Of a stretch of DNA of 62,624 nucleotides, positions 3,042 through 32,579 are shown piece after piece. The first letter of the stretch is position 1; each line of letters begins with the position of its first letter. Origin of the DNA: Candidatus Zipacnadum vermilionense (GTDB lineage Bacteria > Armatimonadota > Zipacnadia > Zipacnadales > Zipacnadaceae); NCBI GenBank assembly GCA_029821755.1, contig JALGSV010000018.1, positions 1 through 62,624 of the forward strand, in the 5' to 3' direction. Under the pieces are notes generated by a model. That model saw nothing but the letters and a program-made list of their open reading frames with translations. It was not told where the DNA came from and ran no database searches. Position numbers and translations under genes: made by a program.

Positions 3042-4154
3042 CTAGCGGTCAACGTCTCCTAACATAATATCGACGCTCCCCAGGATCGCCACCAGGTCGG
3101 CTATCCAGGCGTCCGTGCACATCTCCGGATAGGCCTGGAGGTTGTAGTAACTGGGGGTGCGCATGTGCAGGCGGTACGGATGGTCGCTGCCGTCGGAGAC
3201 CAGGTAGCAGCCCAGCTCTCCGCGCGGCGACTCCACCCGCGCGTAAACCTCGCCGGGGTCCGGCTTGAGCCGGCGGGGGACCTTCACGTTGACCTCGCCG
3301 CCAGGCAGGTGGTCCAGGCACTGCTCCAGAATGCGCACGCTCTGGAGCATCTCCTCCTGGCGGACCAGGTGCCGGGCCATGGAGTCGCTCTCGGTGTAGG
3401 TGGGGACGTCGAACTCCAGCTCCGGGTAGACGTAGTACGGGTCAGCCCGGCGCACGTCGTAGGGCACCCCGGCCCCGCGCAGGCAGGGGCCGGTCACCCC
3501 GTAGGCCAGCGCCGTCTCCGGGCTGAGGTACCCCACGCTTTCGGTCCGGCTCCTGAAGATACGGTTCTTGGTGAGCAGCTTGTCGTACTCCGCGACCATC
3601 CTGGGGAAAACCTTGCAGAAGGCGCGCAGGCCCTCGCAGAAGTCGGGCGGCAGGTCGTTGCGCAGGCCCCCGACGCGGAAGTAGTGGTACATCAGGCGCT
3701 GGCCGGCGGCGGCCTCGAAGAGGTTGAGGAGCATCTCGCGCTCGCGGAAGCAGTAGAGCAGGACGGTGGTGGCGCCGGTGTCGATGGCGAGGGCGCCGTA
3801 GTAGACCAGGTGCGAGGCGATGCGGTTCATCTCCGCCATCATCACGCGGATCCACTGGCAGCGCGGCGTGGGCTCGATCCCCAGCAGCGTCTCCACCGCC
3901 CGCACGTAGCACAGCTCATTGCCCATCGCGTTGAGATAGTCGTAGCGGTCGGCGTAGGGCAGGTACTGGCGGTAGTCAAGCTGCTCGGCGATCTTCTCCA
4001 GCGAGGAGTGCAGGTAGCCGATGTCGGGGACGACCGAGCGCACCTTCTCGCCGTCAATGGTCAGGATGAGACGCAGCACGCCGTGGGTGGACGGGTGCTG
4101 CGGCCCCATGTTGATCATGAGCTCTTCAGTTGCGCAGGCAGGATCAAAGGCCAT
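3042..4154 (-). CDS. nuoD: NADH-quinone oxidoreductase subunit D (49 kDa)
   Basis: NuoD is the hydrogenase-like subunit of the peripheral arm that lines the quinone-binding pocket with NuoB. The 370-residue product begins with the family signature NMGPQHPSTHGVLRL near residue 15, and the rest is collinear with the family. It ends with an LGSVDIMLGDVDR tail, where the family has its conserved C-terminal FGSVDFVMGEVDR-type end. The start is ATG 4152-4154. NuoC is a separate upstream gene here, not fused to nuoD as in E. coli. A family A palindrome separates the two genes. Confidence 0.97.
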   Translation of the reverse strand: MAFDPACATEELMINMGPQHPSTHGVLRLILTIDGEKVRSVVPDIGYLHSSLEKIAEQLDYRQYLPYADRYDYLNAMGNELCYVRAVETLLGIEPTPRCQWIRVMMAEMNRIASHLVYYGALAIDTGATTVLLYCFREREMLLNLFEAAAGQRLMYHYFRVGGLRNDLPPDFCEGLRAFCKVFPRMVAEYDKLLTKNRIFRSRTESVGYLSPETALAYGVTGPCLRGAGVPYDVRRADPYYVYPELEFDVPTYTESDSMARHLVRQEEMLQSVRILEQCLDHLPGGEVNVKVPRRLKPDPGEVYARVESPRGELGCYLVSDGSDHPYRLHMRTPSYYNLQAYPEMCTDAWIADLVAILGSVDIMLGDVDR

Positions 4155-22294: not shown

Positions 22295-25200
22295 ATGTTC
22301 ATTCATCTTCATGTTCATTCCAACTTTTCTTTCTACGACGGGGCGGCTCCCCTGACCGACCTGGTGGAGGCGACGGCGCACCTGGAGATGCCGGCCCTGG
22401 CCGTCACCGACCACAACAGCCTCGCCGGCGCCGTCCGCTTCTACCAGGCTGCCCGTAAGGCGGGGATCAAGCCGATCATCGGGGTGGAGTTTGACTGCGA
22501 ATCAGTTATGGGGAGCGAATCTGTAGAGGCGGCGCCTGCGCCGCCCGCCGTTTCGGCCTTCCCCACCCGACTCCTCCTCCTCGCCCTCGACAATACCGGC
22601 TACTCCCATCTCTGCCGCCTGGTGACCTGTGCCCATCTCGGCGAGGCCCGCTCCGCCGGTCCCTTCGCCCCGCAGTACCACGAGGTGGACCGCAAGCACC
22701 CTCTCCTGCACCAGGAGCATCTGCGCGAGTATGCCTCCCACCTGCTGGCCCTCTCCCCCGCCGGCGCCGGCGAGATCGCCACCCTCCTCCAGGCCGGCGA
22801 CTACCGCACCGCCGCCGCGGTGGCCCGCTACTACGCCGACCTCTTCGGCCCCGGCAACTTCTACCTGGAACTTCAGCACCATCTGAATCAGCCCGAGGGC
22901 GTCCGCCGTCCTAATCCCCCCTCTCCTGCAAGGAGCGGGGGGCCGGGGGGTGAGGTTCGCCACCGCCTTGCTCGCCTCGCCCACAACCTCTCCCTACCCC
23001 TCGTCGCCTCCAACGACGTCCACTACGTCACGCCCGACCATGCGCCGCTGCAGGATGCGCTGTTCTGCCTGGGGCAGGGGATCTCCGTCCGCGACGCCCA
23101 TCCGGGGCGCAAGCCCAATGCCGAGTACTACCTCAAATCCCCGGCCCAGATGGGCAAGCTCTTCGCTGACTATCCTGAGGCTCTCGCCGCCACCGAGGAG
23201 ATCGCCGGGCGCTGCTCCTGGGAGTTGGACCTGGACACCATCCACCTCCCCCGCTTCGACGCCGCCTCAGCCGACGCTTTCAGCGGTGACCCGGATTCCC
23301 CCGCCGACCGCGCCGCCTTTCTGGAGAGGCTCTGCCGCCAAGCCTTGCCGCGCAAATATGGTCTCGACTCCTATCCCCCCTCTCCTGCAAGGAGAGGGGG
23401 GCAGGGGGGTGAGGCGTCCCTGCGCGCCCCTGCCGAGCGCCAGTTGGAGCACGAGCTGGCCGTCATCAACCAGCGCGGCCTGGCCGACTACTTCCTGATC
23501 GTCTGGGACCTGGTCCGTTTCGCCGAGTCCCGCGGCATTCGCCACAGCGGCCGCGGCTCCGCCGCCGACTCGATTGTCTGCCACCTGCTGGATATCACCC
23601 AGCCCGAACCGCTCGCCAACGACCTGCTCTTCGAGCGTTTCCTCAACCCTGAACGCCGCGACCTGCCCGACATTGATCTCGACTTCGACACCCGCCGCCG
23701 CAACGAGGTGGTGGCCTACGTCTACCACAAGTACGGCCCCGAGCATGTCGCCGCCGTCGGCACCGTCAACACCTTCCGCGCTCGCGCGGCGGTGCGCGAG
23801 TTGGGCAAGGTCCTGGGCCTGAGCGAAGGCCAGATCAGCCGCGTGGCCTGCAACTTCGCCTACGTGGACCTGCACCAACTCCCCGCCATGCTGGAGGCGC
23901 TCCCCGAGGCGCGCGGCGTGGCGGGCGATCTGGCCTACGAGCAGACCCTCCTGCGTCTGTGCGAGCAGGTGGGCGGCTACCCCCGCCATATCGCCGTCCA
24001 CGTCGGCGGGCTAATCATCAGCGAGCGCCCCCTAACCGACCTCGTTCCCCTGCAACTGGCCAACAAGGGCATCGTTGTCGCCCAGTACGACAAGGACGAC
24101 GTCGAGGCCCTGGGTCTACTGAAGATGGACCTCCTGGGCCTGCGCATCCACACGGCGATTGAGCACTGCCTGGGGTTGATAAACCGTCCTGTAGGGCGCG
24201 GGCTCGTACCGCGCCCCTCCCGCCACCGTTTCGCCGGTCGAAGCCGGAGATCGATTCGGTATCACCGCCGGCGTTTCTTCCTCCGTAGCCCAAAGCGGGC
24301 GGCGCAGGCGCCGCCCCTACAAAAACTCCCCCTCCCCTGCCAAGGGCGTCAGCGCCCAGGGAGGGGGCAGGGGGTGGGGCTCCGAGCGGCGGGGCACGTA
24401 GGCCCCGTCCTACATGAAATACCCCTCGACGACCCCGCCGCCTATGCCTTGATCCGCTCCACCCACACCCTCGGTCTCTTCCAACTGGAGAGCCCCGGTC
24501 AGCGCAACCTGCAGGGGAGGCTGCTGGCTGAGAAGTTCGAGGACATCATCGCCGGCATCTCTCTCTTTCGCCCCGGGCCGGTGCAGGCGGACATGATCAC
24601 GCCTTTCATCGCCCGCCGTCGGGGCCAGGAGCCGGTCACCTACCTACACCCCGTCCTCGAGCCCATCCTGGAGCGCACTTACGGCGTGATGATCTACCAG
24701 GAGCAGGTGATGCGCGTCGCCGCAGCCATCGGCGGCTTCACCCTCGGGCAGGCTGACCGCCTGCGTAAGGCCATGAACTTCGACTCCCCCACCGAGGCGA
24801 TGCAGCGCCTGCACGACAGCTTTATGGAGGGCGCCCGCCGTCAGGGGATTGACGAGGCCGTAGCCGAGCAGATCTTCTCCCAGGTCGCTGCCTTCGCGGC
24901 ATTCGGCTTCAACAAGGCCCACGCGGCCAGCTTCGCCCGCATCTCCTACGAAAGCGCCTATCTCAAGGCCCACTACCCGGCCGAATTCTTCGCCGGCCTG
25001 CTCACCGCCCAGCCCATGGGCTTCTACCCCCCGCGCACCCTCGCCGAGGAGGCCAAGCGCCTGGGGATTGCGATGCTTCCGCCGTGCGTAAATCGGAGCG
25101 AGGGGGATTATACGGTGGAGAGGACCCCTCCCGGTACGACGGGCGTCTCGCCCGTCGTCGGCGGGAGGGACGGGCGAGACGCCCGTCCTACCGGCCTTCG

Positions 25201-25972
25201 CACCGGCCTCCGTTTCCTCCGGGATATGTCCGGCTCTGCCCTGGAGCAGATCCTCGCCGCTCGCGCCGCCGGGGGGCCCTTTCTGTCCCTGCGCGACTTC
25301 CTCACCCGCGCCAACCCACCTTATCCCATCGTGGAGAACCTCATCCTGGCCCGCGCCTTTGACTGGACCGGCCGGAGCATCCCGCAACTACTCGGCCTGC
25401 TCGCCTCCTTGCACCAGCGCACCGGGAAGGCCGCCCTCACCCTCGACCTGGAGGAACCGCAACTGGAGATGTCCGCGCGGGTCTTCGGCGAGGAGATCAC
25501 GCCCTACCAGCGCCTGCAACTCGACTTGCACCTGCTGGGTCTGAGCACTGAGCTAAACCCCTTCGCGCCGTGGGTGGAGATGTCCGCGCGGCAGGGGGTC
25601 ATCCCCACGGCGCGGCTGCTGGAGTATCCGGACAAGGCGAAGGTGAAGGTAGCGGGAATCGTGGTGGCGCGCGCCCGCCCGCCGGTGCGCAGTGGCCGGA
25701 CGACGCTGTTCATCTGCCTGGAGGACCACACCGGCCTCGTGGACATCACCATCTTCTCGGAGGCCTACCAGCGCTACGGGGAATTCCTGTACACCGCGCC
25801 GGTGCTGCTGGCCGAGGGAGAGCTGACCCGCCGGGGTGAGCGCGACGTAGCGGTAACGGTCAAGCGGGTCCAACCCCTCCCCATGCCCCAGGCGAGAAAG
25901 AAGGCACCGGTCCCCGCCGACGAACTAGCGGAGATCTACCGCCAGACAGGGCCGGGGAGCTATGGGGGGTGA
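22295..25972 (+). CDS. dnaE: DnaE-family DNA polymerase III alpha subunit with in-frame repeat insertions
   Basis: A C-family replicative-type polymerase of 1225 residues. The PHP domain at the N-terminus keeps metal-site residues (HLHVHS at 4-9, TDHN at 38-41, Glu65, DVHY near 245), so proofreading by PHP is possible. The palm shows PDIDLDFD near 458 and KMDLLGLR near 610, supplying the three catalytic Asp. HhH-type and OB-fold regions follow (GIVVARARPPVRSGRTTLF near 1120). About 170 residues are low-complexity segments that correspond exactly to intergenic repeats: near 70-90, 205-222, 360-376, 628-708 and 940-968. Without them the length is about 1055, normal for the family. There is no clear Shine-Dalgarno before ATG 22295. 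Context suggests an SOS mutagenic polymerase (DnaE2/ImuC role), but the window lacks imuA and imuB. Confidence 0.93.
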   Translation: MFIHLHVHSNFSFYDGAAPLTDLVEATAHLEMPALAVTDHNSLAGAVRFYQAARKAGIKPIIGVEFDCESVMGSESVEAAPAPPAVSAFPTRLLLLALDNTGYSHLCRLVTCAHLGEARSAGPFAPQYHEVDRKHPLLHQEHLREYASHLLALSPAGAGEIATLLQAGDYRTAAAVARYYADLFGPGNFYLELQHHLNQPEGVRRPNPPSPARSGGPGGEVRHRLARLAHNLSLPLVASNDVHYVTPDHAPLQDALFCLGQGISVRDAHPGRKPNAEYYLKSPAQMGKLFADYPEALAATEEIAGRCSWELDLDTIHLPRFDAASADAFSGDPDSPADRAAFLERLCRQALPRKYGLDSYPPSPARRGGQGGEASLRAPAERQLEHELAVINQRGLADYFLIVWDLVRFAESRGIRHSGRGSAADSIVCHLLDITQPEPLANDLLFERFLNPERRDLPDIDLDFDTRRRNEVVAYVYHKYGPEHVAAVGTVNTFRARAAVRELGKVLGLSEGQISRVACNFAYVDLHQLPAMLEALPEARGVAGDLAYEQTLLRLCEQVGGYPRHIAVHVGGLIISERPLTDLVPLQLANKGIVVAQYDKDDVEALGLLKMDLLGLRIHTAIEHCLGLINRPVGRGLVPRPSRHRFAGRSRRSIRYHRRRFFLRSPKRAAQAPPLQKLPLPCQGRQRPGRGQGVGLRAAGHVGPVLHEIPLDDPAAYALIRSTHTLGLFQLESPGQRNLQGRLLAEKFEDIIAGISLFRPGPVQADMITPFIARRRGQEPVTYLHPVLEPILERTYGVMIYQEQVMRVAAAIGGFTLGQADRLRKAMNFDSPTEAMQRLHDSFMEGARRQGIDEAVAEQIFSQVAAFAAFGFNKAHAASFARISYESAYLKAHYPAEFFAGLLTAQPMGFYPPRTLAEEAKRLGIAMLPPCVNRSEGDYTVERTPPGTTGVSPVVGGRDGRDARPTGLRTGLRFLRDMSGSALEQILAARAAGGPFLSLRDFLTRANPPYPIVENLILARAFDWTGRSIPQLLGLLASLHQRTGKAALTLDLEEPQLEMSARVFGEEITPYQRLQLDLHLLGLSTELNPFAPWVEMSARQGVIPTARLLEYPDKAKVKVAGIVVARARPPVRSGRTTLFICLEDHTGLVDITIFSEAYQRYGEFLYTAPVLLAEGELTRRGERDVAVTVKRVQPLPMPQARKKAPVPADELAEIYRQTGPGSYGG
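22523..22549. repeat. family H repeat inside dnaE (PHP domain loop)
   Basis: GTAGAGGCGGCGCCTGCGCC.. is read in frame as VEAAPAPPA, between the strand ending IIGVEFDC and RLLLLALDN of the PHP domain. Confidence 0.8.
22912..22955. repeat. family F repeat inside dnaE, first copy
   Basis: CCCCCCTCTCCTGCAAGGAG.. followed by GGTGAGG is translated NPPSPARSGGPGGEV. It is the complement-orientation of the intergenic F repeats (for example 18340-18379). Confidence 0.88.
23375..23416. repeat. family F repeat inside dnaE, second copy
   Basis: The same repeat, orientation and reading frame as the previous copy, translated YPPSPARRGGQGGEA. The matching frame of two copies about 155 codons apart is strong evidence that they arrived as mobile or copied repeats. 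Confidence 0.88.
24187..24420. repeat. composite C, H and F repeats inside dnaE
   Basis: A block of roughly 80 codons contains family C (24191-24217), family H (24295-24320) and an F-like palindrome (24328-24382), all in frame. It separates EHCLGLINR from HEIPLDDPAAYALI, which should be near neighbours in DnaE, just after the third catalytic Asp region. Confidence 0.85.
25133..25192. repeat. family B palindrome inside dnaE
   Basis: GGTACGACGGGCGTCTCGCC and its inverted copy ending at 25192 are translated as TTGVSPVVGGRDGRDARPTG. The intergenic counterpart is at 53053-53136. Confidence 0.88.
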
Positions 25973-26057
25973 ACAGCGCTGATGGGGGGGTCGGACTCCT
26001 GGTCCGCAAACGGCGCAGGCCACCCGGTCGGCCCCTCCACGAATGACCTACCCCTCC

Positions 26058-26999
26058 CTACCCCACCACCGCCTCCTCCCGTTCCCTCCAGTACCGCACC
26101 GACTGCTGCACCAGTTCCTCCAGGGCCTCCGGATCGGGATTGCCGTACATCGCCGGGTAGGGATCGCCGCCGGGGCCGAGGGGTTCGAAGGTCACGTACC
26201 TGCTCTCGGTGTTGTAGCCGATCACGTACAGCGCGCGGATGATCGTGTCTATGTCCAGCGACCCTAGGCCCTGCGCGCAGCGGTTGCTGTCGGCCATGTG
26301 CAGGTTGGTCAGGCACTCCCCCGCCGCCACCAGCGCCTCCCCGATGTGGCTCTCCTCCACCTGCATGTGGTAGACATCGCCGTTGATATACTGCACGCCG
26401 GGATGGTCCACCGCCGCGATGTACGCCTGCGCGTCGGCGATGGTGTGAACCAGGCTCACCTCCGCGGAGCGGATCGGCTCGATCGCCGCCCGCACCCCGT
26501 GCTGGACGAAGAGGTCCGCCACCAGCTTGAGCGTCTGGACCGAGCGGTGCAACTCCATGCCGTCGTAAGGGGCAGGGCGGCCGACCGCGCCGGGGACGAC
26601 CAGTATGTACCCCGCGCCGACCGCCTCGGCGAAGGGGACCTCGCGTTTGAGGTAGTCAATCGCCGCCTGCTGGTGCACCGGATGGTTGCTGGACAGGTCG
26701 TTGTCGGCGCTGAACATGCCGCAGATACCCGCCACCCGCAGGCCGTGGTCGCCCAGGATACGCAGGGCCTCGTCCACGTCGTAGCCCAGGTCCGGCCCGT
26801 AGTGATTGCCGTGCAACTCAATGAACTCCAGCCCGGCCCGCTCCAGCCGCGCCGCCGACGCCTCCAGCGTCTCCACCCCGAAGCCCCAGTTGGACCAGGC
26901 CAGATTCAGCCGCCGGTCCAGCCGGCCCGGAATGGCGCGCAGGGCCTCGAACTGGTCAAGGATCTGGTCGTTCTTAACCTGGAAGTTCTGCATGGACAT
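26058..26999 (-). CDS. sugar phosphate isomerase/epimerase-like TIM-barrel protein
   Basis: The product has 313 residues of the AP-endonuclease-2/xylose-isomerase-like TIM-barrel family. Typical segments are LEFIELHGNHYGPD, HGLRVAGICGMFS, AIEPIRSAEVSLVHTI and NLHMADSNR, whose Glu, His and Asp side chains would form the divalent metal site. The family isomerises or epimerises sugars or inositols. The ATG at 26997-26999 has GGGAGG about 6 nt upstream, so the long upstream extension is a repeat shadow. It is the last gene of a minus-strand cluster with a glucuronate-isomerase-like gene and two unknown genes. The stop is convergent with dnaE across an 85-nt gap containing a small hairpin. Confidence 0.88.
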   Translation of the reverse strand: MSMQNFQVKNDQILDQFEALRAIPGRLDRRLNLAWSNWGFGVETLEASAARLERAGLEFIELHGNHYGPDLGYDVDEALRILGDHGLRVAGICGMFSADNDLSSNHPVHQQAAIDYLKREVPFAEAVGAGYILVVPGAVGRPAPYDGMELHRSVQTLKLVADLFVQHGVRAAIEPIRSAEVSLVHTIADAQAYIAAVDHPGVQYINGDVYHMQVEESHIGEALVAAGECLTNLHMADSNRCAQGLGSLDIDTIIRALYVIGYNTESRYVTFEPLGPGGDPYPAMYGNPDPEALEELVQQSVRYWREREEAVVG

Positions 27000-27014
27000 G
27001 GGATACCTCCCTTT

Positions 27015-27265
27015 GGGTAGCGCAGGCCTCCAAGCCTGCACCGGCGGCGCGGGCGTCTCGCCGGTGCGCCGTGTGGCGCGGGCTTTCCTGCCCGCGCTCT
27101 CCTCCGCGTAGGGGCGAGTGTTCCGCGGGGCCGTATCCCGCGGAACACCCGCCCGCGGGAGCGGCATACCTACCGGACGCCGGCCTCCGCCACCTCAGTG
27201 CCTCGCTCGCGACAGCCGCGGGCGGATGTTGCGTCTCAGAAGCCGCAATATCCGCCCCTACCCGA
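27015..27265. repeat. cluster of partial A and B plus D and E palindromes
   Basis: The 294-nt gap 27000-27293 is almost all repeat. It holds a GCAGGCCTCCAAGCCTGC palindrome (27018-27035), a family B-like arm near 27047-27066, a family A half-copy (27071-27100), family D (27110-27155) and family E (27220-27263). The D-E order matches 18384-18541. I see no promoter or RNA gene here. Confidence 0.75.
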
Positions 27266-27293
27266 ACTCATCCGGGCATCACGAAAGCCGCCC

Positions 27294-28634
27294 CTACCAG
27301 AACTTCCCCGGCTCCATCCCGAGAGCCTGCTGCGGGGCCTCGTAAAGGATCGCCTCCGCCACGGCCAGTGCTTCCTCCTCGGTGTACTGGCCCCGCTGGA
27401 CCCGGCGGGCCAGGACCTCGGCCAGCTCCCGGCGGACCAGCACCGCCTTGGCGTAGGCCCACTCCACCGTGTAGGCGTCGCTGAAGAAGCCCATCTGCTT
27501 GTTGGTGGGCAGCATGTCCAGGCGCTCGTCCATGATCTGTTGGATGATGGAGGGGAAGAAGTTGTGCCACCAGTAGCCCGCTACGGTGAAGTTGGGCAGC
27601 TCCCGGGCCAGGGTGCACAGGCTCTGGTTAGCGTGTTGGCTGGACAGGAAGCACATGAACCGCACTCCCGGGTACCGCTCGACGATCTCCGCCACCTGCC
27701 CGATGGTGCGCTGCGACAGGCGGCTGGCGGTCTCGTAGGGCAGCGGCTCGGCGCCCAGAGAGAACTGAAAGACCATCCCGGCGCCACGGCGCTCCAGCTC
27801 GGCCAGGAAAGCGTTGAGCAGGTAGCTCGCGTAGACATCCCGCTCCGCCTCCGTCGCTTGGTCGCGCCGGGCCAGGGCGGCCTTCATCTCGGCGTCGCTT
27901 ACCTCGCGGTAGTCGATATCGGTGGACAGGTGCTGGGCGGTGGCAATGGCCTCCCCCCACGGCAGCAGATCGCAGTAGTGGCGGATGGCCTCCTGTGCGT
28001 CGGCCACCGAGCGAACAGGCCGCGCCACCGGCGGACGACTGCCCACGGTCACGGGAAGCGGCGGGGCGGGCCGGTCCTGGCCCCAGGTCGCCTCCAGCTC
28101 ATACAGGGGGATGTCGTTCACGCCCCACTGCGCCCGCGTGAAGAAGGCCCACTCCAGCGCATACTGCAGCGCGTCGTCGGCGCTCCCGTCGCCGCGCTTG
28201 ACGATCTCGGTGCAGGCGCGGCGGATGACCGCCTTGCGCAGGATCTCCCGGGCCCACTCGCCGTCGCCGGAGCGCTCGCGAATAATCCCGTCCAGCCGCC
28301 GCCAGTTGTCCGCGGTGATCGGCTCGGTCCAGTCGTACAGGTCCCGCAGGATGATCCGCACCCCCCAGAAGCAGGAGGTGTTGCGGATGAAGGACAGGTA
28401 GGGCAGCGCCTCAATGATCCGCCCGTGGGCCTCCGCCTCGTCCGGCTCGTCCGACAGCCGGGCCCCGGAGGGACATCCTGCCGCATACAGGTCACTGATG
28501 ACCATATGGTACAGCAGAATGTCGTGCAATCCCCGCGCCACCAGATGCGTCGCGTCAAGGTGGGTGTGGCAGTCCAGCAGCGGAATACGGCTTAGACCTT
28601 CCTCGATTGACGCCAGGACGTGGTGTCCGTGCAT
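27294..28634 (-). CDS. amidohydrolase-superfamily protein resembling glucuronate isomerase (UxaC)
   Basis: The product has 446 residues. LLDCHTHLDATHLVARG near residue 19 gives the N-terminal HxH metal motif. ADNWRRLDGIIRERS and YPGVRFMCFLSSQHANQSL, and the C-terminal sequence near WHNFFPSIIQQIMDERLDM, match the pattern of UxaC-type uronate isomerases, which convert glucuronate or galacturonate to the ketose form. It is more distant than a standard UxaC, so another uronate- or sugar-processing reaction is possible. AGAAGGAG lies 6 nt before ATG 28632-28634. Its neighbours are a sugar isomerase downstream and an unknown 631-residue gene upstream. Confidence 0.75.
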   Translation of the reverse strand: MHGHHVLASIEEGLSRIPLLDCHTHLDATHLVARGLHDILLYHMVISDLYAAGCPSGARLSDEPDEAEAHGRIIEALPYLSFIRNTSCFWGVRIILRDLYDWTEPITADNWRRLDGIIRERSGDGEWAREILRKAVIRRACTEIVKRGDGSADDALQYALEWAFFTRAQWGVNDIPLYELEATWGQDRPAPPLPVTVGSRPPVARPVRSVADAQEAIRHYCDLLPWGEAIATAQHLSTDIDYREVSDAEMKAALARRDQATEAERDVYASYLLNAFLAELERRGAGMVFQFSLGAEPLPYETASRLSQRTIGQVAEIVERYPGVRFMCFLSSQHANQSLCTLARELPNFTVAGYWWHNFFPSIIQQIMDERLDMLPTNKQMGFFSDAYTVEWAYAKAVLVRRELAEVLARRVQRGQYTEEEALAVAEAILYEAPQQALGMEPGKFW

Positions 28635-28667
28635 AGGTATCTCCTTCTGTTCTGGAAGCGCCCCCTT

Positions 28668-28700
28668 GTAGGGCGCGAGCTCATGCCGCGCCCTACAGGA
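28668..28700. repeat. family C palindrome, copy 3
   Basis: GTAGGGCGCGAGCTCATGCC.. forms an inverted repeat in the short gap between two cluster genes. It resembles 13278-13303 and 24191-24217. Confidence 0.75.
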
Positions 28701-28710
28701 CCATTCCCGC

Positions 28711-30606
28711 TCAGCTCCCGCTCTGCCCTGGCCGGTGGTCGCACTTGTCCGGGTTCTGGGTAGCTCGCACCACCGGCGGGGCGGGGTAGAGCTCGTTGTA
28801 GTCCTCCCAGCGGTCCAGCATGATCTCCGCCTTGCGGCGGAGTTGCGCCGCTACATCGGGGCCGAAGACGTAGGAGTCCTCTTCCGCCGGGTCGGTGACC
28901 GAGGCTATCACTGGGCAGGGGGCCTCGTCGATCAGGCGCGCTAACTCGTAGACGTTGTCCACCTCCGAGCGGGCGATGGTGCGCAGTTCTACGCCGCCGC
29001 GGTTGATGGTGTAGGTGCCGGTGTGGTCGCGCCAGACGACCTCGTTCTCTTCGGGTGCCATCTGGGCCAGGGCCTCCTCATACTGGACGAAGTTGCGGCA
29101 GGTGATGAAGAGGCAGGCCATCGCGTGCAGGCGGTAGCCGAGGGCCACCAGTTCCTCGCGCGGCACCGGGTCGGTCACCTTCTTCGCCAGCGCCTCGGTC
29201 TGCCGGGTGGCGCCCTCGGCGGCGGCGATGGCCTCGTTGAGGGAGTTGACGGCCATCCACACCGCGGCCGAGCCGGTGACGCCGCGGCGGCCCAGGAGGG
29301 CGTGGTAGCTGTCGGCCTCCACCGCGTCCTTCACTACCCGCCAGCGCTGGTACGTCACCTTGTCCTCGGCGGAGAGGAGGGACTGGTCGGGGACCAGCGG
29401 CATGGTCGCCCAGCGCATCATGGCCGTACCTACCAGCATGATGCTCATATAACCGTACCCGCGCACATGCCGTACGCAGTCAGCGGCCCGCTCGATAGTG
29501 GCCCAGACCTCCAGCAGCGCCTCCGCGTTGTCCTCGCCGACGAACTTCGCGGCCAGGTCGCGTAGGACCGCCATGCGTGAGGCAGGGCCGCTGGTGGGCC
29601 GGCCGCGCATGGCCCGGTAGACCTCGATCAGTAGCTTCTCCACCTGCGGCCCGAAGGTCACGCTCACCCGCTCGGTATCGGCGGCGAAGGCGCGCTCCAT
29701 CTCCGCCGCGAAGGCGAAGACCTTGGGCACACCCACGACCGGGTACAGGTGGTTGCCGAACCAACTGTTGGAGCCCATCCCGGAAGACCAGGGGTGATTC
29801 TGGGCGTCGCGGCCCTTGTAGTACTGGCCGGGCTGGAGCTGCGACCGCTCCAAGAGCGGGGCGGTGCCCTGAACGTCGAGGTCCACCTGCACCTCACTGC
29901 CACCCTCCCGCGCGCCCTCTTGGATGGCGGTGAGGAAACCGACTACCCGCTGGGTATGGGTGCGATGGCGGCACCAGTTGGGACCGTTGTCGCCGGGGTA
30001 GGAGCCCGACCAACACAGGGCGCCGCCGGAGTCGTTGGTGAAGGACCACCAGAAGTCCAGTTCCGGGACGTTGCGGCACAGCTCGGCCATAGACCAGCGG
30101 AACATGGCGAGTACCTCGGGGTTGTCCACGCAAGGGCTCCAGTAGGGCAGGCGCGTGATGCAGAGCAACTCGGCCTGGCCGCCGCGCCAGTCGGGATGGG
30201 CCCGGTAGGCGCCCTCGGGCAGCCACATGGGGTCGTTGCCGCTCCAGGCGACCCGCAGACCCAGGGGCCGCAAGACCTCCGCCCGCTCGCAGAGGAGGGC
30301 CATGTTCTCCGCTGCCTCTCCCGTAGGGAGCCATTCCTCCAATCCGGGCGGGACGGCGACCTTCCACAGCGTGGGTTGAATAATGGACCAGATGGGCCAG
30401 GAGGCCCACTCGGGATGCGGGTCACGAGGGTCCTGCATCTGCCACCAGGACTTAGGCAGCGCCGCGATGTTCATGTGGGTAGCGCCCAGTTCGGCGGCTT
30501 GCTCAGCGAATCGGCGGAAGACTCCCAGATCACGGTTGAGGGAGGGATCGTCCCGCTGGGACCAGATAATAGCGCGCTTCTCAGTTGTATCGGGGGCAGA
30601 TGACAT
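28711..30606 (-). CDS. unknown 631-residue protein, probably TIM-barrel glycoside-active
   Basis: I do not recognise a named family. The N-terminal two thirds alternate helices and strands as in a TIM barrel. They include ATHMNIAALPKSWW, LGLRVAWSGNDPMWLPEGAY, LDFWWSFTNDSGGALCWSG and EVQVDLDVQGTA, and are rich in Trp, Asn and Asp like carbohydrate-binding clefts. The C-terminal 200 residues are helical. There is no signal peptide. AAGGAG lies 7 nt before ATG 30604-30606. Co-directional sugar isomerase genes downstream suggest a role in degrading a saccharide; the reaction is unknown. Confidence 0.78.
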   Translation of the reverse strand: MSSAPDTTEKRAIIWSQRDDPSLNRDLGVFRRFAEQAAELGATHMNIAALPKSWWQMQDPRDPHPEWASWPIWSIIQPTLWKVAVPPGLEEWLPTGEAAENMALLCERAEVLRPLGLRVAWSGNDPMWLPEGAYRAHPDWRGGQAELLCITRLPYWSPCVDNPEVLAMFRWSMAELCRNVPELDFWWSFTNDSGGALCWSGSYPGDNGPNWCRHRTHTQRVVGFLTAIQEGAREGGSEVQVDLDVQGTAPLLERSQLQPGQYYKGRDAQNHPWSSGMGSNSWFGNHLYPVVGVPKVFAFAAEMERAFAADTERVSVTFGPQVEKLLIEVYRAMRGRPTSGPASRMAVLRDLAAKFVGEDNAEALLEVWATIERAADCVRHVRGYGYMSIMLVGTAMMRWATMPLVPDQSLLSAEDKVTYQRWRVVKDAVEADSYHALLGRRGVTGSAAVWMAVNSLNEAIAAAEGATRQTEALAKKVTDPVPREELVALGYRLHAMACLFITCRNFVQYEEALAQMAPEENEVVWRDHTGTYTINRGGVELRTIARSEVDNVYELARLIDEAPCPVIASVTDPAEEDSYVFGPDVAAQLRRKAEIMLDRWEDYNELYPAPPVVRATQNPDKCDHRPGQSGS

Positions 30607-30660
30607 GATGTTCTCCTTAGGTGGTGCGAGTCGGGAAGACTGGTTTGGGATTGCATCCCA

Positions 30661-30685
30661 TGAAACAATTGTTTCACGTGAAACA
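30661..30685. promoter_or_regulatory. perfect parS (ParB-binding) site with overlapping palindrome
   Basis: TGTTTCACGTGAAACA at 30670-30685 is identical to the bacterial chromosomal parS consensus bound by ParB/Spo0J. It overlaps a second palindrome, TGAAACAATTGTTTCA at 30661-30676, which reuses half of it. It lies in the intergenic region upstream of the 631-residue gene. parS sites usually cluster near the replication origin. No parA/parB or dnaA is in this window. Confidence 0.85.
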
Positions 30686-30716: not shown

Positions 30717-30780
30717 CGTAGGGGCGGCCGTCGCGGTGGGGTCGCCGACGGCCGCTTAGGAGCCGCGAAGGCCGCCTCTA
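30717..30780. repeat. family E-like palindrome abutting a stop codon
   Basis: GTAGGGGCGGCCGTCG.. and its inverted partner ending CGCCTCTAC at 30781. The terminal GTAG of the element, on the minus strand, supplies the TAG stop of the neighbouring 242-residue gene. Confidence 0.7.
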
Positions 30781-31506
30781 CAGTGTCCCGTACTCCAGAT
30801 ACGGCTCCCCGATGAACTTCCCGTTTCGCTGGGCGCGGAATAATCCCTCCGACTGCATGTCCCAGAGGACGTCTACGCTGTGGTCGCCCCATTGGGCGGT
30901 GACGCGGCGCTCGCCTTCGTAGGTGCAATCGGTTACCTGCAGAGTCGCGCAGGCGGCGCAGAAGGCGGCGAAACTGCCGTATTCGCCCTCGGAGCCCATC
31001 AGGTAGACCAGGCCGCCGCAGGTTCGGCGGATCTCCGCGCCGAGGAAGTCGCCCGGCAGGCCCTCATAGTTGTAGAATGAAACTACCCGCGCCTTGCCGA
31101 CCGAGGTCACGGAGACCGTTTTCTCCCGACCATGGTCAGTAAGGGCGAGGGAACGCAAGGCTACGCAAGTGATCCCATCCTTGACGAAGACCCAGTCCTC
31201 GGCAGTACCGAGGCCGGTCAGGTCGGGGCAAAGCTGATCGCCGATCCAGACCTCCTCCACCGGACTGAAGTACTCGGAGATCAGGGCGCAGGTGCGCAGG
31301 GCAGTGATACCCTCGCGGATCACCTCGCCACCGGCGTACCAGGCGATGGCGAGGGGGCCGCTCTGCCGGGCACCGCCAGGGCCGACCCAGGCGCCGTCGG
31401 GGCAGAAACGGGGGAAGCTCACGGCGCGGCATTCGGTCATATAGGCGGTCTGCCGGGCGGCCTGGGCCTCGGGGGCAAGAGCGGCGGAAAGGGATTTGGG
31501 TGTCAT
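30778..31506 (-). CDS. unknown 242-residue protein of the sugar cluster
   Basis: I do not recognise it. The sequence is beta-rich (VEEVWIGDQLCPDL, DWVFVKDGITCVALRSLAL, TVSVTSVGKARVVSFYNYEG) with seven Cys. It reads like the C-terminal beta-sandwich found in heparinase- or lyase-type polysaccharide enzymes, standing alone without a catalytic domain; that is only a resemblance. The ATG at 31504-31506 has GGAGG 7 nt upstream, which rejects the 81-codon extension. It is the first gene of the minus-strand cluster and is divergent from htpX. The stop codon lies in a palindromic repeat. Confidence 0.7.
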   Translation of the reverse strand: MTPKSLSAALAPEAQAARQTAYMTECRAVSFPRFCPDGAWVGPGGARQSGPLAIAWYAGGEVIREGITALRTCALISEYFSPVEEVWIGDQLCPDLTGLGTAEDWVFVKDGITCVALRSLALTDHGREKTVSVTSVGKARVVSFYNYEGLPGDFLGAEIRRTCGGLVYLMGSEGEYGSFAAFCAACATLQVTDCTYEGERRVTAQWGDHSVDVLWDMQSEGLFRAQRNGKFIGEPYLEYGTL

Positions 31507-31686
31507 GGGGATGCCTCCGGCAAGGGGCCTGACAAGGAACAGCGGAAGACCTTTCGACGCGAGGGGGAGGAAGGCCTTCTCGGAACCACCCCCCCGCCGG
31601 CGCCCCCGTCGGCGGCGGCTGAGAGCGGAGGGTTGGGGTCGGTGGGGGTAGCCGCGAACCTCCGCTGCGGTGTGCGTGTCTAATAG

Positions 31687-31712
31687 GAGGGCGGTCTGGT
31701 GGAACCGCCCTC
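31687..31712 (+). promoter_or_regulatory. 9-bp hairpin in the htpX leader
   Basis: GAGGGCGGT (31687-31695) pairs perfectly with ACCGCCCTC (31704-31712), followed by TTATCG and then the htpX Shine-Dalgarno. It may be a leader attenuator or simply a repeat. The rest of the 31507-31739 gap holds no confident promoter. Confidence 0.5.
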
Positions 31713-31739
31713 TTATCGTGCCTGGAGGAAGACGGTTAC

Positions 31740-32579
31740 ATGAATGCATTCAAGACGTTTCTGTTGATGGCGACACTGACCGGACTGTTCCTGCTAGTGG
31801 GGTACCTGGCCGGAGGGACGCGGGGGATGATCATCGCCCTGGGGCTAGCGGCGGTGCTGAACGTGGGGAGCTACTGGTTCTCGGACAAGATTGTCCTGAT
31901 GATGTACCGGGCGCAGGAGGCGAGCGAGAGCCAGGCGCCGGAGTTGCATGCGACAGTGCGGAAGCTGGCGGAGCGGGAGGGGCTGCCCATGCCGCGGGTG
32001 TTCATCATCCCGGAGGAGTCGCCCAATGCTTTCGCTACGGGGCGCGACCCGCAACACGCGGTGGTGGCCTGCACGGTGGGGTTGCTGCGGATCCTCAACC
32101 AGGAGGAGCTGGAGGGAGTGCTGGCGCATGAGCTGTCACATGTGCAACACCGGGATCTGCTGATCGGGGCCTTCGCGGCGACATTGGCCGGGGCGCTGAT
32201 GATCCTGGCGCGGCTGGCGCTCTTCTTCGGCGGGGGACGGGACCGAGAGGGGGGCGTGATCGGGTGGCTGTTGCTGCTGATCCTCGCGCCGATTGCGGCG
32301 CTGCTGATCCGCCTGGCAATTTCGCGCTCGCGGGAGTATGCCGCGGATGCGGGCGGGGCGGCGCTGGCGAGGAATCCGCTGGGGCTGGCGCACGCGCTGG
32401 CGAAGCTGGAGCGGGCCTCAGAGGCGGTGCCGATGACCAAAGCCGAGCCTAACACCTCGCACCTATTCATCGTCAATCCGCTGCGGGGAAACTGGATGGG
32501 GAGACTGTTCAGCACGCATCCGCCGGTTGCGAAGCGGATTGAGCGGCTGGAGGAGATGGCGAGAGAGAAGGGGAGGTAG
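31740..32579 (+). CDS. htpX: HtpX-type membrane zinc metalloprotease
   Basis: An integral membrane M48 protease that degrades damaged membrane proteins. In the 279 residues, two N-terminal transmembrane helices (about 5-24 and 29-48) precede the catalytic domain with HELSH (His130, Glu131, His134). Two more hydrophobic segments follow (about 141-163 and 172-192), and the third zinc ligand Glu is in SREYAADAGG. The C-terminal FSTHPPVAKRIERLEEM is a family signature. GGAGG lies 9 nt before ATG 31740. It is monocistronic on the plus strand, opposite the sugar cluster. Confidence 0.95.
   Translation: MNAFKTFLLMATLTGLFLLVGYLAGGTRGMIIALGLAAVLNVGSYWFSDKIVLMMYRAQEASESQAPELHATVRKLAEREGLPMPRVFIIPEESPNAFATGRDPQHAVVACTVGLLRILNQEELEGVLAHELSHVQHRDLLIGAFAATLAGALMILARLALFFGGGRDREGGVIGWLLLLILAPIAALLIRLAISRSREYAADAGGAALARNPLGLAHALAKLERASEAVPMTKAEPNTSHLFIVNPLRGNWMGRLFSTHPPVAKRIERLEEMAREKGR

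Follow-up and report, generated by a model that had tools for sequence, protein, structure and literature searches.

Phased tandem parS doublets at dispersed loci in Candidatus Zipacnadum vermilionense and their association with origin-type skew jumps

Results

A pair of phased parS units in the window

The window analysed here, a stretch of 62,624 nucleotides, is a complete contig (C58) of the 4.39-Mb, 115-contig assembly. Between two genes whose products have no family match (Table 1), positions 30661–30685 read TGAAACAATTGTTTCACGTGAAACA. A preliminary description made from the letters alone had noted here a perfect chromosomal parS site and, overlapping it, a second perfect palindrome. Both were confirmed. 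The parS 16-mer, TGTTTCACGTGAAACA, has no mismatch to the consensus and is the sole match in the window at up to three mismatches, with 0.02 expected (100 shuffles); the palindrome, TGAAACAATTGTTTCA, is likewise the sole match at up to three mismatches, with 0.01 expected.

The same description took the arrangement for one unknown from parS sites. The overlap of the two palindromes stands, but the second palindrome does not form an element of its own. It marks the place where two parS units, phased in an 18-bp register, join, and this tandem layout is why it has an inner half-site in common with parS. In the partner unit, TGCATCCCATGAAACA, the inner half-site is perfect and the outer half-site matches at 4 of 7 positions. 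The same junction, with the same AT spacer, recurs in a perfect doublet on another contig, C37. We consider it fairly likely that the window site is a chromosomal parS built as a phased tandem doublet, with half-sites every 9 bp, units every 18 bp and one outer arm decayed, and that it is recognised, as predicted, by the only ParB of the genome. An effect of ParB loading on the adjoining gene, raised in the preliminary description, is possible.

Table 1. Features at and around the window site (positions in the window)
Feature	Position	Strand	Remarks
Perfect parS 16-mer, TGTTTCACGTGAAACA	30670..30685	.	Half-sites 3 and 4 of the doublet; 0 mismatches to consensus
Degenerate second parS unit, TGCATCCCATGAAACA	30652..30667	.	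12/16 to consensus; 18 bp from first unit; mismatches counted on the sequence
Palindrome, TGAAACAATTGTTTCA	30661..30676	.	Junction of both units: inner half-sites and AT spacer
Whole phased parS doublet, 34 bp	30652..30685	.	Doublet weight-matrix score 55.7 (shuffled maximum 1.8), not independent, the matrix being built from 7 sites that include this one
Inverted repeat TGGGAT-TGC-ATCCCA	30646..30660	.	Read from the sequence; overlaps the degenerate outer arm
Gene for 631-aa protein, no family match	28711..30606	-	0 Pfam, 0 NCBIfam; start codon 45 bp from the doublet
323-aa ORF, no family match, on the doublet's other side	30778..31749	-	From the ORF list; Pfam and NCBIfam
Origin-type GC3-skew jump (support interval)	25266..28971	.	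-0.13 to +0.13; best estimate 27470

The largest step in four-fold-site skew within the window lies at 29.0 kb. A gene for DNA polymerase III alpha (DnaE-type; 22295–25972, plus strand) is located to the left of the window's skew jump. The inverted repeat listed in Table 1 is perfect and lies in the leader of the 631-aa gene; it could be another operator or a hairpin.

The ParB of this genome and its parS inventory

Searches of the whole genome with two family models retrieved one ParB-family protein and no second one that could serve dispersed sites; ParA is also present. The ParB protein aligns with those of Caulobacter and Bacillus over the parS-reading region. Its specificity residues are R/C/S/G, in which the equivalents of R173 and G201 (Caulobacter numbering) are of the parS type; the contact residues agree with parS recognition as well, position 171 being R instead of K. 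By score, its best NCBIfam match is the Noc model, under the cut-off (247.5 of 315). Noc is a ParB-family protein with NBS sites spread around the chromosome. The dispersal of the sites in the present genome is like that of Noc; unlike in Noc, the sites are parS and not NBS, and the ParB residues are parS-type and not QKKR, so that a Noc/NBS system was rejected. The R/G residue code that separates parS recognition from Noc-site recognition is described in a part of PMC7383237.

The main locus is on contig C83, where dnaA is found at 18 kb and parAB at 35 kb, with the gene order mnmG-rsmG-parA-parB. Beside parAB, between it and mnmG and rsmG, seven single sites are clustered at 32.2–34.9 kb, six of them identical perfect 16-mers and one with a mismatch. 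We regard the window site as a ParB-type parS because the genome has one ParB with parS-type residues and six identical 16-mers beside parAB.

In the whole assembly, 20 parS-like places were found at up to two mismatches (13 perfect, 3 with one mismatch and 4 with two). Those outside the C83 cluster form nine loci on nine other contigs, one locus per contig. As the contigs are unordered, a minimum span can be given: all ten parS places together require at least 0.64 Mb of the 4.39-Mb genome (15%). The window site is on another contig than dnaA and parAB. The preliminary description had inferred an origin-proximal window, and had counted evenly scattered copies of the 16-mer, or a genome lacking ParB, against its reading. 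Its inference is not supported in that simple form, as dnaA and parAB are on C83 with parS on nine other contigs, while it is borne out to the extent that an origin-type skew jump (at about 25.3–29 kb) adjoins the site; its objection of scattered copies applies in part, given the nine loci outside C83, and a ParB gene is present. For the DnaA box, the single pattern tried, TTATNCACA, had no match in 7 of the 10 parS contigs, the window included, and none near the sites in the other three.

An 18-bp register separates the dispersed loci from the cluster

We scored a locus as a phased doublet when the half-site TGTTTCA was matched at five or more of its seven positions at +18 (background, 0.005 per side). 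Eight of the nine dispersed loci qualified, as against none of the seven cluster sites (Fisher p=0.0014). The C37 locus is a perfect pair, and those of C33, C63 and C69 are pairs with totals of 2, 2 and 3 mismatches, respectively; weaker pairs are present on C32, C12, the window contig and C53, the last amounting to only about 1.5 units. C17 carries a single site. Within units, the spacer is CG or one step off in nearly all cases, whereas the two-base spacer between units is free. By a hand count, the inner half-sites have about 5 mismatches and the outer ones about 18; such better conservation of the inner arms would not be predicted for plain pairs of equal parS units and counts against such a reading. 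When the inner everted repeat, that is, the junction motif, was searched alone at up to two mismatches, exactly the same eight places were recovered, the reversed control pattern giving 4; at up to one mismatch, there were 7 matches in this genome and 0 for the reversed control.

The doublet, at up to three mismatches, was absent from 290 of 291 genomes of the phylum, the present genome being its sole carrier; it therefore arose, or survived, only here. At the orthologous loci of two congeners (G001 and G002), no parS with fewer than five mismatches was found where orthologues aligned; C32 and C12 had no convincing flank, and C58, C37 and C63 one flank only. Judging from these alignments, the dispersed set appears to have been gained here, or lost in the congeners, within the genus. 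The junction motif, at up to one mismatch, has 1 or 2 matches in 11 of 60 relatives, in line with the reversed controls.

Flanking genes and the possibility of a transcriptional operator

The doublets could instead be operators of another dimeric transcription factor, for example of the TetR family, whose half-site happens to equal the parS half-site; the PsrA-type box GAAAC-N4-GTTTC is a possible TetR-like parallel. Several doublets do lie upstream of start codons, and the one on C69 has a TetR gene on one side and a sugar-enzyme gene on the other. Conservation is highest in the inner everted repeat, and the set is confined to one species, as would be expected of a private regulon. Against this, the repeated unit equals the universal parS at 16 of 16 positions, including the CG centre, and six identical copies of it stand at parAB. 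The genes flanking the nine dispersed loci share no common function and form no coherent regulon. The C63 doublet fills a 61-bp gap between convergent genes, where there is no promoter, and the C17 site also lies between convergent genes. Nor would an operator predict the skew jumps at the sites described below. Taken together, we regard this explanation as rather unlikely.

For the C69 doublet, the reading as a TetR operator was rejected on the evidence of the congener G001, whose orthologous locus has the same gene order and keeps the TetR gene's own promoter and, over the start region, a palindrome different from the doublet, with the doublet absent. The likely operator of the C69 TetR regulator is a palindrome, AAGTAATC..TGATTACTT, that overlaps a conserved promoter in two congeners (L059, 10050–10116; L092, about 1090–1130).

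GC skew rises at the dispersed loci

We measured the GC-skew step at each site as the value on its right minus that on its left, a quantity independent of contig orientation. At 10 kb, the step was positive at all nine dispersed loci. For the 8 of 9 loci testable with whole contigs (C32 is too short), the step averaged 0.126 at 10 kb and 0.133 at 20 kb; in 20000 random draws, no mean as large was obtained. The C12 step has the opposite sign at 2.5 and 5 kb. No effect was seen at 1 kb (p 0.64), and the signal is therefore regional.

An upward change-point was located within 2.5 kb of 5 of the 8 testable dispersed sites, as compared with 36 of 600 random positions. The offsets were 3.2 kb for the window site, 5.4 kb for C12 and 10.4 kb for C69, and the jump on C33 is weak. 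For the parAB cluster on C83, the change-point fell 43 bp from the chosen cluster centre. Gene orientation was rejected as the origin of the steps, since coding sequence shows no outward orientation: within 10 kb of the sites, the fraction pointing away is 0.16 to 0.65. At most sites, the plus-strand third-position skew is negative to the left and positive to the right, whichever strand the genes are on; the exceptions are the left sides of C63 and C12, where genes are few or the jump is offset.

In a comparison at aligned third positions that is weak and serves as a hint only, the skew of congeners on the right side was lower than here at C37 (two comparisons), C33, C63 and C53 (one comparison), about equal at C17 and opposite at C69, with mixed values on the left. 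In a genome of the same order, represented by one 316-kb contig, the skew is nearly flat, the one exception being a step at the parS pair of that contig. Skew is also slight in four 20-kb pieces from a genome of the same family (rms 0.064, versus 0.176 here).

A skew sawtooth, with jumps also on contigs lacking parS

Jumps were surveyed on 20 contigs totalling 1.73 Mb: the ten parS contigs, chosen for parS, and ten others (0.53 Mb) chosen blind to skew. At a threshold of 0.3, GC3 skew showed 14 upward jumps and 1 downward jump (p 0.001). The excess depends on the threshold, being 13 to 1 at 0.4 and 21 to 16 at 0.25 (15-kb windows); a sawtooth shape would give just such an excess at high thresholds and its loss at low ones. 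Averaged around the 14 jumps, which were picked by size so that their height is inflated, the four-fold-site GC skew goes from −0.08 at −60 kb to −0.32, rises to +0.29 and declines to about +0.1 at +60 kb. The sign of TA skew changes too. Plus- and minus-strand genes agree (−0.30 and −0.29 on the left, +0.28 and +0.27 on the right), an agreement unaffected by the way the jumps were picked. Sharp rises with slow declines characterise multi-origin genomes in which origins are fixed and termination is diffuse (N-domains), and the present profile has the sharp negative-to-positive jumps, the gradual declines and the independence of gene strand that define such domains. On the 387-kb contig C53, for instance, four sharp upward jumps at about 22, 170, 293 and 366 kb are separated by gradual declines, with parS only at the first.

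Seven of the 14 jumps have parS within 5.5 kb. Strong jumps without it are found on C20, on C60, on C53 at 171, 293 and 366 kb and on C17 at 217 kb. As jumps are also present on C20 and C60, which belong to the ten contigs without parS, parS marks a subset of them. Within 8 kb of six parS-less jumps, we found no degenerate parS at up to four mismatches, and a search of the parS-less jumps for a common word, AT-rich dips and tRNA genes gave nothing convincing. The strongest upward jump of all is at about 43–47 kb on C20, a contig without any parS.

The skew bears on a reading under which the dispersed sites are ordinary parS over the broad origin domain of one single-origin chromosome, the doublets being incidental duplications and the jumps products of rearrangement or chance. 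In other species, too, some parS are remote from the main cluster, the minimum span of 15% of the genome would fit a large origin domain, and some jumps are without parS. However, one origin gives one negative-to-positive jump, whereas 14 were counted here against a single fall in 1.73 Mb. Inversions would give equally sharp rises and falls, the effect is equal in both gene strands and in GC and TA skew, and chance fails for the 18-bp register. This alternative is accordingly unlikely in our estimation. It is highly improbable that the assembly consists of many replicons (chromids), each with an origin and a parS doublet of its own and all relying on a single ParAB in trans: the presence of one parS locus per contig on nine contigs, with skew minima at or near most, would suit such a set, and a shared ParB would account for perfect sites without a local parB, but C53 alone has four jumps on its 387 kb, one of them with parS, and circular contigs were rejected, overlapping ends being found in 0 of the 10 contigs.

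Discussion

A working model for the dispersed doublets

For the parS doublets, we propose that ParB dimers would load cooperatively at the two adjacent units, and that the loaded ParB would then form closed CTP clamps, spread over the neighbouring DNA and bring in SMC. In this way, a doublet could load ParB as strongly at an isolated locus as the seven single sites do beside parAB. The dispersed sites are probably ParB/SMC entry points that segregate or organise secondary origin-like loci, because most of them sit at or within a few kb of origin-type jumps, as does the main cluster. The analysis establishes the sequence of the sites, their register, their number and dispersal, their lack in relatives and their association with the jumps; ParB occupancy of these sites, its cooperativity, the loading of SMC and the initiation of replication at the jumps are what we infer from these features. 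More tentatively, the bacterium may start replication at many fixed origins, spaced at about one per 125 kb over the part examined, with parS doublets beside many of them and each origin region segregated or loaded with SMC; we regard this as conceivable but doubtful. Loss of dnaA as the source of multiple origins was rejected, since dnaA was found in all 46 genomes searched, the present one included.

Relation to known systems

The system resembles the chromosomal ParABS systems with parS clusters near oriC, as in Caulobacter, Pseudomonas aeruginosa and Bacillus subtilis, in its 16-bp consensus, its ParB family and its cluster by mnmG-rsmG-parA-parB; it differs from them in having nine loci on other contigs, eight of which are 18-bp phased doublets. 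According to a portion of PMC5815017, parS is almost exclusively found near the origin, and sites elsewhere disturb segregation. The ParB of P. aeruginosa recognises single arms, GTTTCAC or GTTCCAC, at many dispersed places, as stated in parts of PMC10419367 and PMC7022226. Unlike these half-parS sites, the dispersed places here are few in number and intergenic, and they consist of nearly complete sites that pair in a fixed register.

Multi-origin replication independent of DnaA has been described in cyanobacteria, whose skew is irregular and in which dnaA is dispensable or missing (PMC7198777, in part); the letters 'pars' do not occur in the main text of that paper. Unlike in those cyanobacteria, as portrayed there, dnaA is present here, and the skew forms a regular sawtooth in which many jumps have parS next to them. 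Putative double origins are treated for a few bacteria in section 4 of Gao 2015 (PMC4403523), where they show as two local skew minima on one chromosome, one of which lies beside parB in Dehalobacter; the number of origins there is two at most, as opposed to about a dozen origin-like jumps in 1.73 Mb here. A 2023 review gives a single origin per chromosome for all bacteria (PMC10331603, in the passage concerned). Our searches of the open-licence literature turned up no description of parS doublets in a phased register, nor of parS at multiple origin-like skew jumps.

The eight dispersed phased doublets thus test the rule that parS stays in the origin region, and their coincidence with origin-type jumps that are independent of gene strand links ParB loading to possible extra origins. 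If real, this link raises the question of whether many origins can be used by a natural bacterial chromosome that has DnaA, and of how they are then segregated; if the many-origin reading is true, the chromosome would be a bacterial equivalent of those multi-origin chromosomes that carry several centromere-like sites. Even if the jumps arise otherwise, the 18-bp doublet offers a clean natural test of cooperative ParB loading.

Doublet-like sequences in other genomes

An independent doublet is present in Syntrophomonas UBA4911 (L065:3604–3637), just downstream of parB, which ends at 3601. This arrangement, as far as sequence can tell, indicates that the same register is in use by ParB systems elsewhere. 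Across about 85,000 genomes, phased pairs were found in 7 stretches, a number near chance, and the phased doublet as a general requirement of ParB was rejected on this count. We judged most of the 7 stretches to be conserved, Eggerthellaceae-type versions with three half-sites, and one to be a true doublet. Adlercreutzia, Enterorhabdus and one uncultured genome each have two places with the conserved three-half-site version of parS. There, the three-half-site parS (L064:260–330, L069:2280–2340, L066, L067, L068 and L063) adjoins a conserved element, ATACC...GGGGGTAT, which we take to resemble an operator of the CsoR/CstR type.

Matches to the doublet, mostly partial, were also obtained in 6 plasmid records and 88 phage records. 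An unannotated doublet-like stretch is carried by the Glutamicibacter phage Voltaire (OV696617.1:8742–8776) and by the Arthrobacter phages Racecar, Mimi and Talia1610 (91% over 34 bases; 90% over 30 bases). On an IMG/VR viral contig (L070:659–683), a three-half-site parS lies about 75 bp past the 3′ end of a 529-aa ORF, which we read as the large subunit of terminase.
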